NCBI GenBank assembly: GCA_001464155.1
Contig: LNEN01000260.1
Location: 1-33,661 of the forward strand
Direction of reading: 5' to 3'
From: Cytophagales bacterium Ga0077538
Lineage (GTDB): Bacteria > Bacteroidota > Bacteroidia > Cytophagales > Cyclobacteriaceae
DNA length: 33,661 nucleotides
Part shown: positions 4,587-26,908 of the stretch, piece by piece
Position numbering within the stretch: position 1 is the first letter of the stretch
Layout of the letters: every line of letters starts with the position of its first letter
Made by a program: the position numbers and the translations under genes
The notes under the pieces: generated by a model
Seen by the model: the letters and a program-made list of their open reading frames with translations, nothing else
What the model was told of the DNA's origin: nothing
Databases searched by the model: none

Positions 4587-4708
4587 GCCATCTCGAAAAT
4601 CAAAATGTCATGCTGAACTTGTTTCAGCATCTTGCAAGAAGTGTTTTTAAAGCAGATTCCGAAACAAGTTCGGAATGACAAATTTTCTTAAATGATTTTT
4701 GAGATGGC
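4587..4708. repeat. Composite inverted repeat downstream of the BNR gene
   Basis: Outer arms 4587-4600 (GCCATCTCGAAAAT) and 4695-4708 (ATTTTTGAGATGGC) pair at 13 of 14 positions. They enclose a second palindrome at 4606-4680 with ends TGTCATGCTGAACTTG and CAAGTTCGGAATGACA. The whole block lies between two convergent genes and could fold into a long hairpin, so it may double as a transcription terminator. The inner element belongs to the same TGTCA...TGACA class as 1222-1320 and 32526-32604. Confidence 0.7.
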
Positions 4709-4713
4709 TTCTA

Positions 4714-4783
4714 GTTATCAGTTAACGGTTCGCTGTTAACTGATAACTGGTAACCCATAACTATTTACCAATTACTGATAACA
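4714..4783. repeat. Degenerate 7-bp-period array at the thioesterase 3' end
   Basis: Ten consecutive 7-bp units start at 4714 and every 7 bases to 4777. They are of GTTAnnn type on the left (GTTATCA, GTTAACG) and nnTAACn type on the right (GATAACT, GGTAACC, CATAACT). The first five units also form a perfect 13-bp inverted repeat, 4714-4726 with 4735-4747. The array runs across the thioesterase stop codon (4761-4763) and supplies its last six or seven codons. It has the same period and core as the arrays at 24031 and 26027. Confidence 0.7.
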
Positions 4784-16305: not shown

Positions 16306-16340
16306 AGCTAAGAGCAATGAGCTGCTAGCTACTGGCTCGC
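16306..16340. repeat. Degenerate 7-bp-period array after the tolC-like gene
   Basis: Five 7-bp units, AGCTAAG, AGCAATG, AGCTGCT, AGCTACT and GGCTCGC, start at 16306, 16313, 16320, 16327 and 16334. Every unit has G and C at its second and third positions. It begins on the second TAA after the gene. The period matches the arrays at 4714, 24031 and 26027, but the core differs (AGCTA instead of GTTA/TAAC). Confidence 0.6.
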
Positions 16341-22005: not shown

Positions 22006-23601
22006 ATGGAAAAAACAAATTTTTTCTATGAGAAATCACTCGTTCTCCTGGAACTCAGCCGCACCTTTGTGGATCTCAAAAATTTAAAGGAAGGAAAAAA
22101 ATACCTTGACCTTACCTTGACCATCGCCAAAGAACATCCCGAAGACGATCGAATCATGGCCAATTATTACCGTGAATTATCGTTCTACTTTTTGGAAATC
22201 AATGAGACAGACTCTGCCTTGGCTGCCGCACAAAAAGGAATACATATCTATGAAAATAGAGGAGACAAATTAAATGCGAGTGTTCTCTACAGTCGTCAGA
22301 TACGCGCTTACCTCCTTCAACAAAAATTTGAGAAGGCAGCCATTCTGTGCAGAAAAACACTTGTGTTAGATAGTCTTGTTAAAAATAAAAGAGGACAAGG
22401 AATCAGTTTTCTCCAAATGGCAACCATCTTGGGTGAATTAAATAAGGTTGACAGCGCTATACTGCTTGTTAAAAAAGCAATTACGATCAACAAAGAAATT
22501 GGGAATTGGCAAGCCTTGCATCGCTCGTATAAAAAGCTGAGTGAATTATATGTAGCTAAAAACAAACCTTTGTTAGCCATCGAACAACTACTCCTGGCCG
22601 ATGTGTTTAAAGACAGTCTGTACAACGTTCGCTCTTCCGGTCAAATTGAAGAAATGAAAATTTTGTATGAGACAGAGAAAAAAGATAATACGATTGCCCT
22701 ACTTGAAAAAGATAAAGCGCTTCAAGAACAACAAACTCGCAATCAACGTCTCTTTGTTGGATTTTTAATAGCTCTTATTATTTTATTGGGTATTCTACTT
22801 TTTGTTGTGTTTCGTTCTCAGCGAGTTCAAAAAAAGACTAATAAGGAATTAGAGGAGAAAAATAAATCCATTGAGCAGCAACGGGAAGAGATGCAATTAC
22901 AGGCAGAAAAGCTACAAGAATTAAATCAGCTCAAGTCAAAACTTTTCTCCGTCATCGGTCATGATTTACGAGGCCCCATCAATAGCTTACAAGCACTACT
23001 GGATCTCTTCACTAAAAATTTACTAACGCAAGAAGAATTTATACAACACTCCGATAAATTAAAGGCTAGTGTAAACATTATACAGCGTACGTTGGAGAAT
23101 TTACTAAACTGGTCGCTCAGTCAAATGGAAGGTATTCGCACAAGGCCTTCGGTAATGGACATTAAAAATTCTGCGGACGAGGCCGCCCGACTGCTTACCG
23201 ATATTGCTTCTCGTAAAAACATTCATGTGGAGAATACTATAGAAAGCGCTTTGTTGGTGTATGCAGATCCGGATCAAGTGCAACTCATTCTACGAAATCT
23301 GATTCACAACGGCATTAAATTTTCGAAAGCCAACAGCACGGTCACCATTTCAGCCGTTACTAAAGATCGGGAATGCTCTATTTCCATTCTTGATCAGGGT
23401 ATCGGCATGACTCAGGAAGAACTGGAGCGCCTTCAGATTCAGAAAGAACATTTCACTAAGATTGGAACCCTCCAAGAAAAAGGTACTGGACTCGGGATTC
23501 TATTATGCCGGGAGTTTGTAACTCGCAATGAAGGAACACTTACTATTCAAAGTGAAGCAGGAAAAGGAACGATCATTTCCCTTACACTTCCACTTGCTTA
23601 A
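22006..23601 (+). CDS. TPR sensor histidine kinase (main part; 5' end frameshifted)
   Basis: Counting from the ATG at 22006: residues 1-230 hold about five tetratricopeptide repeats (e.g. YYRELSFYFLEINETDSALAAA, ISFLQMATILGELNKVDSAI). A membrane helix at 249-269 and a coiled coil at 271-310 follow. The HisKA domain has the phospho-acceptor H319 (VIGHDLRGPINS), and the HATPase domain has N435 (NLIHNGIKFS), DQGIGM (463-468) and GTGLG (493-497). All kinase boxes are intact. The natural protein should have an exported TPR sensor, but the signal peptide is encoded in another frame just upstream. Starting at 22006 would remove the export signal and the first TPR helices. There is no response regulator next door. 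The stop overlaps that of the convergent CDGSH gene. Confidence 0.85.
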   Translation: MEKTNFFYEKSLVLLELSRTFVDLKNLKEGKKYLDLTLTIAKEHPEDDRIMANYYRELSFYFLEINETDSALAAAQKGIHIYENRGDKLNASVLYSRQIRAYLLQQKFEKAAILCRKTLVLDSLVKNKRGQGISFLQMATILGELNKVDSAILLVKKAITINKEIGNWQALHRSYKKLSELYVAKNKPLLAIEQLLLADVFKDSLYNVRSSGQIEEMKILYETEKKDNTIALLEKDKALQEQQTRNQRLFVGFLIALIILLGILLFVVFRSQRVQKKTNKELEEKNKSIEQQREEMQLQAEKLQELNQLKSKLFSVIGHDLRGPINSLQALLDLFTKNLLTQEEFIQHSDKLKASVNIIQRTLENLLNWSLSQMEGIRTRPSVMDIKNSADEAARLLTDIASRKNIHVENTIESALLVYADPDQVQLILRNLIHNGIKFSKANSTVTISAVTKDRECSISILDQGIGMTQEELERLQIQKEHFTKIGTLQEKGTGLGILLCREFVTRNEGTLTIQSEAGKGTIISLTLPLA

Positions 23602-24026
23602 GCTTTAAAATCGATCTTGCGATGAGATCCATCACAAAAAGGTTTGTTGCTTGATGCCCCACAACGGCAGAAGGCAGTTACGTTATTCTTCTTCGTCAAA
23701 ACACCGGCAGCATCTTTCACGACTACATTTCCATAAACCATCAAGGGGCCATTGACCACTGGTTCCATAATAGTTTCCGCTGATACACTTACTTGATCCT
23801 TTTCTGCCTCCTTGTTTAGGTAGTAACTTAACGCACCACTTGGGCATTTCTTTACCTGTGCAATTATTTTTTCGGTAGCGGATTTTTCCGGAGTAATCCA
23901 AGGACGCTTCTGTGGATCGAACACTTCACCTAAACCTTTAAAACATATTGCAGAGTGAACACATTCTGTTGGCTTCCATACGATGGTCACCTCTCCGTTG
24001 GTATATTTTTTTGTGATGTCCTTCAT
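23598..24026 (-). CDS. Iron-sulfur protein: Fer4_19 plus CDGSH domains
   Basis: A 142-residue cytoplasmic protein with two metal domains. Residues 5-70 are a divergent mono-cluster ferredoxin (DUF1271/YjdI-type) with C22, C28 and C61 (TECVHSAICFKG, KKCPSGAL). Residues 93-140 are a CDGSH domain with C120-x-C122, C131-D-G-S-H135, the ligands of a 2Fe-2S cluster with one histidine. The probable role is electron transfer or redox sensing. It is the last gene of the minus-strand redox cluster, 26 bases after the OsmC gene; that gap is filled by a 7-bp-period repeat that also lies just before its ATG. Its TAA overlaps the TAA of the convergent kinase gene (shared TTAA at 23598-23601). Confidence 0.9.
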   Translation of the reverse strand: MKDITKKYTNGEVTIVWKPTECVHSAICFKGLGEVFDPQKRPWITPEKSATEKIIAQVKKCPSGALSYYLNKEAEKDQVSVSAETIMEPVVNGPLMVYGNVVVKDAAGVLTKKNNVTAFCRCGASSNKPFCDGSHRKIDFKA

Positions 24027-24030
24027 AGAA

Positions 24031-24079
24031 GTTAATAGTTATTGGCTATCTGTTAACTGACAACAGATAGCTGGGTACT
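24031..24079. repeat. Degenerate 7-bp-period array across the OsmC stop codon
   Basis: Seven 7-bp units, each beginning with G at 24031, 24038, 24045, 24052, 24059, 24066 and 24073 (GTTAATA, GTTATTG, GCTATCT, GTTAACT, GACAACA and so on). A perfect 10-bp stem, 24045-24054 with 24062-24071, lies inside. The array fills the gap between OsmC and CDGSH genes and extends 24 bases into the OsmC gene, encoding its last eight residues. Confidence 0.7.
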
Positions 24080-24454
24080 AATCTGAATGGGGTTAGTGAG
24101 TACTTTGTGCACTGGACACAATTTAGCGATTTGTAACATGCGCTGATGTTGGGCCTCGTCTAAGTTGCCCATAATTTTTATATCCGTTTCGAAAGCCGTT
24201 CCCCCTTCCACCTCTTTAGAGACAACCGATACCTGGATTTCCTTTACATCAAATTTTTTGCGGTTTGCATACATGCGCAAGGTAATGGCTGTGCAAGAGG
24301 CTAAGGACATGCGTAGAAAATCACCGGGGCGCGGCCCCAAATCCTTTCCGCCTACATCCATTGGTTCATCAGCAACAAGCATGTGTGTGCGAGCTACCAA
24401 TTCTGTTTTGTAGGTATCTGTTCCGATCGTTGCGACAGCAATTTTTTCTTCCAT
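24053..24454 (-). CDS. OsmC-family protein
   Basis: A 133-residue OsmC/Ohr-fold protein. The two family cysteines are C54 (LASCTAITLRMYANRK) and C113 (AKLCPVHKVL), the thiol pair used by OsmC and Ohr peroxidases to reduce organic hydroperoxides. Glu/Arg partner positions of Ohr are not obvious, so it fits the broader YhfA-like OsmC branch. It begins one base before the nitroreductase stop, so the two are almost certainly co-transcribed and coupled. Its final residues STQLSVVS are encoded by a 7-bp-period repeat array, beyond the normal end of the fold (NPIQIS). It is likely part of an oxidative or electrophile-stress unit. Confidence 0.9.
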   Translation of the reverse strand: MEEKIAVATIGTDTYKTELVARTHMLVADEPMDVGGKDLGPRPGDFLRMSLASCTAITLRMYANRKKFDVKEIQVSVVSKEVEGGTAFETDIKIMGNLDEAQHQRMLQIAKLCPVHKVLTNPIQISTQLSVVS

Positions 24455-25149: not shown

Positions 25150-26019
25150 TTACTCTTCAATCAACACTCCCATCTTACCCATTTGGTAGTCACGCATCGC
25201 CTCCAGTATCTCTGTTTGGGTGTTCATCACAAAAGGACCGTGCGATACTACCGGTTCATCCAAAGGCGCTCCGCTCAAAAGAAGCATGCGCGTGTCTTCT
25301 ACTGCTTCGAAGGCAATGCCTTCTCCATCATTCTTAAAATAAACAGCGTGCAATCCTTCCGCCAATCCATAGCCTTCCAATCGAATGCTACCATCCAGTA
25401 AGTACAAGAGCACCTGGTGATTCTCAGGCAAATGGTAAGACATTTTACCGCCCTGCTTTGAATAGACAGTAGCCGCATTCACAGGACTTAAGGTTGGAAT
25501 TTTACCTCTAACCTTTTCGACTTCACCGGCAAAAACACTTGTTGTCACCAATCCATCTGCAGAGACAAGAGAGGGAACTTCCGATGCTTGAATGGGAAAG
25601 TAAGAAGGTTGATCCATTTTATTCTTCGCAGGATTGTTAATCCATAACTGAATGATTTCTTGTCGTCCCCCTAGTTCATGGATATCGTGTGGAGGACGCT
25701 CGCTGTGAATAAGACCCCTACCGGCATTCATCCACTGTGCGCCTCCAGCATATACAACACTATCATAGCCACGGCTGTCGCGGTGGTGAACTCCTCCCTG
25801 GAAGATAAAAGTAACCGGAGAAAATCCTCTGTGCGGATGCGGCCCCACACCAGCGTGACCGGGTTCTAGGTGAGTGGGCACTTTAACGCTGGCATGATGC
25901 AAGAGAAGAAAAGGATCTACTTGTTGTACCTGCTGTGTTGGTAAAGGTTGCCGTATGGGCAAGCCACCCATATCGACCTCATGCGCATATAATAAATGAG
26001 AGACCGATCTTGATTTCAT
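25150..26019 (-). CDS. Pirin family protein (cytoplasmic)
   Basis: A 289-residue bicupin. The metal ligands are H61-P-H63 (VGPHPHRGFSPVTFIFQGGVHHRD) and H105-S-E107 (AGRGLIHSERP), matching the pirin H-x-H...H-x-E iron site. The C-terminal pirin domain holds the segment SGAPLDEPVVSHGPFVMNT near residue 250. Members are known as quercetin dioxygenases or redox-sensing cofactors. No signal peptide is present, unlike the pirin encoded just upstream at 26908. The 73-base gap between the two is entirely filled by a 7-bp-period repeat array. Confidence 0.93.
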   Translation of the reverse strand: MKSRSVSHLLYAHEVDMGGLPIRQPLPTQQVQQVDPFLLLHHASVKVPTHLEPGHAGVGPHPHRGFSPVTFIFQGGVHHRDSRGYDSVVYAGGAQWMNAGRGLIHSERPPHDIHELGGRQEIIQLWINNPAKNKMDQPSYFPIQASEVPSLVSADGLVTTSVFAGEVEKVRGKIPTLSPVNAATVYSKQGGKMSYHLPENHQVLLYLLDGSIRLEGYGLAEGLHAVYFKNDGEGIAFEAVEDTRMLLLSGAPLDEPVVSHGPFVMNTQTEILEAMRDYQMGKMGVLIEE

Positions 26020-26026
26020 TTTGTTC

Positions 26027-26096
26027 GTTATTGGTTATTCGTTACGAGTTATTTGTAGTCGCCAGTAACAAATAACCCATAACTGTTAACAATTAA
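26027..26096. repeat. Degenerate 7-bp-period array between the two pirin genes
   Basis: Ten 7-bp units start at 26027 and every 7 bases to 26090. The left half is GTTAnnn (GTTATTG, GTTATTC, GTTACGA, GTTATTT); the right half is nnnnTAA (CCAGTAA, CAAATAA, CCCATAA, CTGTTAA). The two halves are roughly reverse complements, with a perfect 9-bp stem at 26048-26056/26068-26076. It runs from the stop codon of the upstream pirin gene to seven bases before the ATG of the next. Confidence 0.7.
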
Positions 26097-26908
26097 TTCA
26101 TAGGAACTTCCATCAGCAATACTTCCGCATCGCTATCCGCTGCGATTGTAAGCTTCTCTACATCCCACACACCCAAGCCATCGCGCTTATTCAGTTTTTG
26201 TCCATTGATCGTGACATCACCTTCAATAACAAAAGCATACACACCATTGGAATTTTTATTGATGGAATACTCTGTTGTTAAACCTTTTGCCAATTTACCA
26301 AGCGAAAACCAGGCATCCTGATTAATCCACAAGGCTCCCTCCTTTTTATCGGGGGCCACCACGGTTTGAAATTTATTGATTCGATCTTCAGCACTGAATA
26401 ATTTCTGATCGTAGCGAGGTTGTATGTTTCTTTCTTTGGGGAAGACCCATACTTGCAAAAAATTAACGTCTTCCGTCTTCGATGCATTCTTCTCGCTGTG
26501 AGCGATGCCCGAACCTGCACTCATAATTTGTACCTCACCGGATTTAATGATCCCATGACCTCCTGTGTTATCGCCATGTTCCAAGGCACCCCGCAAGGGA
26601 ATGGAAATGATTTCCATGTTATCGTGCGGATGCTGACCAAAGCCTGCACCGCCTGTCACTACGTCATCATTCAAAACACGGAGAGCACCAAAGTTTACAC
26701 GGGCAGGATCGTAATATCCTGCAAAACTGAAGGTGTGATAAGAATTGAGCCAACCGTGATTGGCGTGGCCACGTGTGTTGGCCTTATGCAAGACACTTTT
26801 CATAGTAGTAATTTTTTTGTCTGATGCTTTTTTCTGAGCGCTAGCCTCTAAACCCTCCAAACTGAGTATGGTTCCTAAAACAAGCCAAAAAAGAGGTTTT
26901 TTCTGCAT
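26093..26908 (-). CDS. Pirin family protein with apparent signal peptide
   Basis: A 271-residue bicupin. Metal ligands H93-P-H95 (GQHPHDNMEI) and H137-S-E139 (GSGIAHSEK) are present. The core starts at M36 (MKSVLHKANTRGHANHGWLNSYHTFSF), the usual first residue of YhaK/pirin proteins. In front lie 35 residues resembling a Sec signal peptide (QKK, hydrophobic core LFWLVLGTILSLEGL, cleavage EASA-QK). If used, the protein is exported, which is unusual for pirins. The internal ATG at 26803 would give a normal cytoplasmic form. It is the first gene of the five-gene redox cluster. A 12-bp palindrome lies 47-58 bases upstream. Confidence 0.88.
   Translation of the reverse strand: MQKKPLFWLVLGTILSLEGLEASAQKKASDKKITTMKSVLHKANTRGHANHGWLNSYHTFSFAGYYDPARVNFGALRVLNDDVVTGGAGFGQHPHDNMEIISIPLRGALEHGDNTGGHGIIKSGEVQIMSAGSGIAHSEKNASKTEDVNFLQVWVFPKERNIQPRYDQKLFSAEDRINKFQTVVAPDKKEGALWINQDAWFSLGKLAKGLTTEYSINKNSNGVYAFVIEGDVTINGQKLNKRDGLGVWDVEKLTIAADSDAEVLLMEVPMN

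Follow-up and report, generated by a model that had tools for sequence, protein, structure and literature searches.

The degenerate array of seven-base units at positions 24031-24079, together with two further GTTA arrays at 4714-4783 and 26027-26096, belongs to a genome-wide class of hairpin-forming arrays. The window, i.e., the whole stretch of DNA that was analysed (33,661 nucleotides), is one contig of a 323-contig draft genome of the Cytophagales, whose nearest named records by the pirin gene are a Cyclobacteriaceae MAG (bin.177, 81% identity) and Chryseotalea sanaruensis (79%). Arrays of this class have a period of seven, dyad symmetry, a fixed polarity, and a position at gene borders; among close relatives of another family, indels near arrays are multiples of seven more often than elsewhere, and one loop inversion and the replacement of the spelling at one gap were observed. 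Our best explanation, to which we give a probability of roughly 45%, is that the arrays are hairpin-forming DNA that is reshaped by slippage in steps of 7 nt and by template switching from arm to arm, and that is retained at gene borders.

A sequence-only reading of the window had listed four degenerate 7-bp arrays, all of them at gene 3' ends. Lag-7 matches number 41/63 at 4714-4783 (ten units; best lag-7 score 20), 39/63 at 26027-26096 (ten units; score 15), 25/42 at 24031-24079 (seven units; score 10), and 17/28 at 16306-16340 (score 9), giving a lag-7 identity of 60-65% at all four sites versus 7-29% at lags 5, 6, 8, and 9. The window-wide null consisted of 60 order-1 shuffles with a mean maximum lag-7 score of 8.8 and a highest value of 14. 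The two ten-unit arrays score above every one of these shuffles; the other two are significant locally only (p 0.0007 for 24031-24079 and p 0.0003 for 16306-16340), their scores lying under the shuffle maximum of the window. Tandem Repeats Finder reported parts of the 4714 and 26027 arrays only, and Rfam at gathering thresholds gave no match in the whole window. The dyad symmetry claimed for the three GTTA sites is borne out, with palindrome p values of 0/800 (4714-4783), 0.0025 (24031-24079), and 0/800 (26027-26096); their RNA folding z values on the plus strand are -5.9, -3.1, and -2.2, respectively. The fourth site, an AGCnnnn array lying 3 nt past the stop of an OEP (outer membrane efflux) ORF, is a doubtful member of the class, because it has no significant dyad (palindrome p 0.086) and no hairpin (z +0.3), and GCTANNN in three consecutive units is rare in the genome (3 matches, control 0). 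The list of four thus stands firmly for two arrays, locally for the flagged one, and doubtfully for 16306-16340. The location at a gene 3' end is correct for 4/4 sites, and the 24031 and 26027 arrays are near start codons as well.

The flagged array lies between an ORF with Fer4_19 and CDGSH domains (23598-24026, minus strand), whose start codon is 5 nt away, and an OsmC-like ORF (24053-24454, minus strand), whose stop codon lies inside the array. Folding of the segment 24020-24090 gives a predicted hairpin with its left arm at 24042-24054 and its right arm at 24062-24074; on the minus strand, the last codons of the OsmC-like frame make up the right arm, and the other arm lies past the stop codon. 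Since relatives keep a similar OsmC protein end without the hairpin (alignment read by eye), the arm past the stop codon resembles coding sequence that was copied in inverted orientation, with the coding sequence as the presumed source. No such array was seen by eye in the corresponding gap of three aligned relatives. Please note that the flagged array holds only one in-phase GTTA pair, and it is therefore absent from the 51 stricter elements used below.

The 4714-4783 array is located between two convergent genes and overlaps the 3' end of a minus-strand ORF that stops at 4761. Directly upstream, at 4696-4711, is TTTTTGAGATGGCTTC, whose reverse complement recurs beside the heptamer arms of another locus (L028); this sequence may belong to a composite repeat. 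The 26027-26096 array fills the gap between two pirin-type genes, i.e., a pirin ORF (25150-26019, minus strand) with its start codon 8 nt from the array and a second pirin-type ORF (26093-26908, minus strand) with its stop codon at the array's end. In alignments read by eye, the pirin gap is only ~24 nt long in a genome of the same genus (G003) and carries other heptamers (TTTCAAA) in C. sanaruensis, and in a further related locus (L025) the two gaps hold arrays of GAGATAA and GTTGnnn units.

The expectation that the pattern would recur across the genome held. GTTANNN repeated three times gives 193 matches versus 38 for the reversed pattern, and the dyad of three GTTA and two TAAC units gives 138 versus 3 for the reversed control, all of these being overlapping matches rather than elements. 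Polarity is fixed: the opposite order, TAAC..GTTA, has 0 matches in this genome, and in its arrays the runs are ordered GTTA-then-TAAC in 33 cases versus 1. Across Bacteroidota, GTTA..TAAC order was found in 56/395 genomes and TAAC..GTTA in 6/395; the reversed control is impure, as three genomes (G351, G275, and G310) match the control but not the real pattern, probably because they carry another dialect. The stretches taken at places with three GTTANNN units were among the matches listed, a part of the 193. Of 69 clusters, 51 have at least two in-phase pairs and were used for the stricter counts.

The unit reads GTTAWYN on the 5' arm and NRWTAAC on the 3' arm. Spacers of three bases, taken from 63 arms, prefer T or A first and then a pyrimidine (151/176), and TCA is the most frequent spacer (20/176). 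Exact spacer triplets agree between the two arms of an element 21 times versus 11.9 with arms swapped (maximum 18 in 1000; 29 elements); base-by-base agreement stays within the control (118 versus 109, control maximum 127). The period-8 version of the dyad pattern has 0 matches in this genome and occurs in 4/99 genomes, one of which (G037) has a clear octamer class. Arrays with an 8-bp period and the same dyad build accompany the heptamers in G037 and in G001.

Period-seven arrays with other cores are in excess in other Bacteroidota. When 80 named loci of Bacteroidota (514 kb in total) were scanned without assuming a core, lag 7 returned 40 arrays; a shuffle had 3, every other lag between 4 and 13 had 0-3, and further peaks stood at lags 14 and 21. 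The number of lag-7 arrays in 150 kb of E. coli was 0. The cores vary among loci (GAGATAA, GTTGnnn, AGTCnAT, TAATGAn, and others). In a set of 169 array clusters, 82 contain palindromes versus 2 shuffled. One genome, G037, has many cores, often in dyad pairs such as GATGACn/nGTCATC and GCAATnn/nnATTGC (by reading). By tetramer counts, this genome uses mostly GTTA, and C. sanaruensis mostly AAAT/AATT plus an 8-bp ATCA class. Among four other genomes of the same genus, G001 has 27 GTTA arrays versus 24 in the control, with runs of perfect GTTATTC, and G002, G003, and G004 have 0 versus 1, 2 versus 17, and 0 versus 2, respectively. As none of the four has a GTTA excess, the dialect is either young or has been lost there.

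Several individual records are worth mentioning. A near-identical AGG-type heptamer array lies downstream of the pirin gene in two records that are classified in different genera, Flavihumibacter and Sediminibacterium (L096:3859-3951 and L099:3867-3951). A C. sanaruensis contig starts within a perfect TGAATTA array of ~18 units (L208:1-127), so perfect heptamer arrays may break assemblies. One Bacteroidetes record contains CCCTAAA-type heptamers (L067:3857-3907), CCCTAAA being the spelling of plant telomere repeats.

How the arrays change was followed in a comparison group of related genomes from another family, with blocks 88-94% identical and one block at 76%. GTTA arrays occur at corresponding places in 6/13 loci; the other seven have no ortholog among the stretches compared. 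Variable columns in four of these six loci amount to 1/92 in cores, 4/45 in spacers, and 15/88 in loops (core versus loop, p 0.0001; core versus spacer, p 0.04), a count that excludes one poorly alignable locus, one direct array, and the inverted G167 row of locus L183, and whose references were picked for exact cores, which favours conserved cores. Read from these alignments, the contrast between cores and loops resembles selection on the core. When all GTTA arms are pooled, their substitutions (8.4%) are not below those of other intergenic DNA (7.2%). Indels are multiples of 7 in 13/59 cases near arrays versus 4/107 elsewhere in intergenic DNA (Fisher p 0.0004); this figure and the substitution figures pool 15 overlapping genome pairs, and some indel events are common to several pairs. 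For all arrays together, substitutions reach 13.5% versus 7.2% in other intergenic DNA and gaps 10.9% versus 1.3%; split by class, substitutions are 17.8% in non-GTTA arrays and gaps are 13.5% in non-GTTA arrays and 7.7% in GTTA arrays.

At one locus, the close species G030 and G167 carry the loop between the arms in opposite orientations (L183:8722-8786 against L192). Although an inner inversion fits better at 6/28 orthologous array gaps, this one only is convincing, the other five comparisons being one single gap whose sequence differs altogether. At the gap at L184:6161, at least three heptamer spellings were found in five genomes that are ~90% identical; in two genomes a REP-like palindrome of ~100 bp sits between the arms, one of them also found by pattern. 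REP-like palindromes (GTCATTTCGA..TCGAAATGAC and kin) were also observed between or beside heptamer arms at L200:5907-6090, L028:5133-5330, and L117:2950-3100. Nesting between heptamer arms was rejected as a general rule for such cores, as 10 of the 13 found by pattern are unflanked; lag-7 arrays (score at least 9) lie on both sides of two and on one side of one.

We therefore propose, as a model, that the GTTA arrays are noncoding, hairpin-forming runs of degenerate 7-bp units in dyad order. Units would be gained and lost through 7-nt slippage at the DNA level, one arm of the hairpin would template the other through a presumed template switch, and the loops would be able to flip. Because a period not divisible by three would not be tolerated inside genes, the arrays would settle flush against gene ends, as REPs do; most copies would be kept passively, and some would probably be under selection on the core. 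Such remodelling would explain the dyads, the partial agreement between arms, the steps of 7 nt, the flipped loop, the quick respelling, and the absence of a G·U bias. On its own, it does not account for why the polarity is fixed, GTTA conserved, and the spacers independent, and a factor that reads the sequence fits these three better; the many cores in G037, however, speak against a single sequence-specific factor. On this balance of evidence we rank remodelling first and a protein-binding ladder second.

In the latter reading, which we hold to be possible though doubtful, a lineage-specific protein would recognise GTTA cores spaced 7 bp apart and arranged as a dyad, with the spacer left free, and the dialect would follow the protein; by analogy, such a binder might be compared to the ribbon-helix-helix proteins that occupy contiguous 7-bp heptads. 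The single dominant core in this genome, the free spacers, the fixed polarity, and the 1/92 variable core columns argue for it, and there is a precedent for a 7-bp ladder in the Omega/ParB sites of plasmid pSM19035 (PMC9499535). It sits poorly with the several unrelated cores within G037, with the different spellings at one gap among close species, and with the non-GTTA heptamer arrays evolving faster than other intergenic DNA. No binder was found either: the single candidate family searched, Omega, gave 0/5 genomes, in a search in which the control genomes also gave no match. A broader version, rather unlikely when taken as a whole, holds that each Bacteroidota lineage has its own dialect of dyad heptamer (and some octamer) ladders, placed at gene borders with fixed polarity and free spacers and kept by a fast-evolving factor that reads or writes a 7-nt grammar; the factor would be a ladder-binding or a hairpin-processing protein, and the dialect would shift whenever the factor shifts.

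The arrays lie conspicuously close to gene ends. In long gaps (at least 150 bp), 13/20 arrays are within 10 nt of a gene end, versus 2.0 at random (maximum 8 in 10,000). Stop sides are within 10 nt of an array in 37/51 cases versus 18/45 for start sides (p 0.002), as measured on the 51 clusters minus three (two inside ORFs, one at an edge) with gene ends from longest-ORF calling with ATG only, so that starts are less certain than stops. Core-free arrays of four genome samples are depleted in divergent gaps (13/115 versus 164/842 gaps, p 0.04) and show no enrichment in convergent gaps (14/115 versus 118/842); this count started from 147 clusters, 27 of them inside called ORFs (15/39 in G037) and five more without a neighbour, and its sample holds 20 stretches (f24) picked for carrying GTTA arrays.

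Much of this placement would also be expected of RNA hairpins at message ends, which, like REP RNA, could shield 3' ends, keep cistrons apart, or hold up ribosomes close to the stop codon; the closeness to stops, the depletion in divergent gaps, and the strong predicted folds of the 4714 and 24031 arrays fit such a role. We nevertheless regard it as unlikely. On the sense strand, 57 co-directional palindromes have 38 G·U against 40 A·C and thus no G·U excess; RNA-level pairing was rejected on this absence of asymmetry, and the earlier proposal of an RNA element with seven-base turns is left without support. No compensatory changes were seen on reading the aligned loci, the start sides within 10 nt are not few, and the lack of enrichment in convergent gaps counts against RNA hairpins and led us to reject a bidirectional terminator.

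Plain relics of slippage, i.e., perfect 7-nt repeats that expand and then decay with no later role, are less probable still. Perfect arrays do exist (GTTAGAA in contig C89 of this genome, GTTATTC in G001, and GTTATGA in five or more units versus two in relatives), and the indels in multiples of 7 point the same way. The units, however, do not behave as recent copies of their neighbours, since identical neighbouring spacers occur 3/109 times versus 4.8 expected, with one perfect array excluded. Decay is also uneven over the seven columns (122.9 versus 97.2, 0/2000, 123 arrays), a result to which shared unit ancestry may contribute and which, taken array by array, falls below p 0.05 in only 5/123. 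Dyads and fixed polarity go unexplained. The slippage-relic reading is thus hard to hold for the GTTA class; of the earlier suggestion of slippage-driven expansion, the 7-nt steps survive, and the relics by themselves fail on the chance-level likeness of neighbouring spacers.

A barrier of stop codons in all six frames, in which TTA/TAA recurs on both strands with a spacing not divisible by three, is very improbable: the core contains TTA/TAA, the two periods seen, 7 and 8, each run through every frame, and stop codons abutting arrays are TAG in 17/37 cases versus 105/419 called genes (p 0.01), but the polarity is the wrong way round, the sense strand after a stop meeting GTTA and not TAAC, and the cores GCAAT and CAGCCAG contain no stop, so that the barrier was rejected. 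We also rejected a copy-and-paste mobile element, as the genome holds no true copy of the flagged region (one weak match only, 84% over 38 bases) and the spacer strings common to elements are at chance level (12 shared adjacent spacer pairs versus 10.9 expected).

Heptamer repeats in bacteria have so far been attributed to slippage or taken for rare motifs acquired by transfer. The arrays described here are a common hairpin class with a fixed core, a free spacer, a fixed polarity, and a position flush with gene ends, and their spelling is genome-specific and can be exchanged for another one even between close species. Because relatives carry similar arrays with different letters, the data point to a class of hairpin-forming DNA that changes fast and has been little described. 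Why seven is a favoured repeat length in bacteria becomes testable through the comparison of close strains, and the arrays matter for how 3' ends and operon gaps are annotated in Bacteroidota.

The earlier statement that no known feature class explains the arrays was too strong, as two close precedents exist (PMC4679880 and PMC4476775); even so, none of the families tested shares all of its defining traits with these arrays. The dyad GTTA class, its polarity, and the Bacteroidota dialects were not found described in the open-access literature, the available portions of these two papers included, and an earlier description is possible. The first precedent is the TAACTGA heptamer, reported as intergenic in five Bacteroidetes, often near start codons with other placements in some genomes; that study counted exact direct repeats and reported few related heptamers for its main genome (MacGregor 2015, PMC4679880). 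Read on the other strand, (TAACTGA)n becomes (GTTATCA)n, with TCA as the commonest spacer of our arrays, and both are intergenic. Of exact tandem TAACTGA in this genome, the 4714 array is off in the last base of its second unit, and GTTATCAGTTATCAGTTA in contig C208 is exact. In contrast to these direct repeats, which lie mostly upstream of starts, our arrays are degenerate, in dyad order and of fixed polarity, and abut stops (37/51) more than starts (18/45).

The second precedent is the P6b stem of the Nostoc trnL intron, in which degenerate 7-nt units with the core TDNGATT or NNTGAGT are reported to undergo 7-nt indels and come in two interchangeable spellings (PMC4476775). In our arrays, too, degenerate fixed-core 7-nt units build both sides of the stem; the trnL stem, however, is a single site in a group I intron, whereas the arrays here occupy many gene borders, and the window has no Rfam match. 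The Omega/ParB sites of pSM19035 are contiguous 7-bp units, direct and inverted, at plasmid partition and promoter sites (PMC9499535); our arrays share this build, but the consensus there is WATCACW and not GTTAWYN.

REP elements come closest in placement. Those of the GTAG/CGTC families are reported to be small intergenic palindromes by ORF 3' ends, rarer in divergent gaps and often supplying a TAG stop (PMC3733652). Our arrays likewise lie at ORF 3' ends and are depleted in divergent gaps, and, unlike REPs, they are not enriched in convergent ones. About 1.5 kb on each side of the Y1_Tnp (RAYT-type) genes at 17 loci in five genomes contains no lag-7 array (the single lag-7 hit is a stretch of N) and just one isolated TAAC pair; the sole Y1_Tnp match in this genome is one short frame. 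A RAYT link was accordingly rejected. The earlier verdict that the arrays are not REPs is favoured by the missing Y1_Tnp neighbour and by the lack of any longer shared sequence and is weakened by the very REP-like placement: REPs are copies of one sequence, whereas the elements described here have only a grammar in common.
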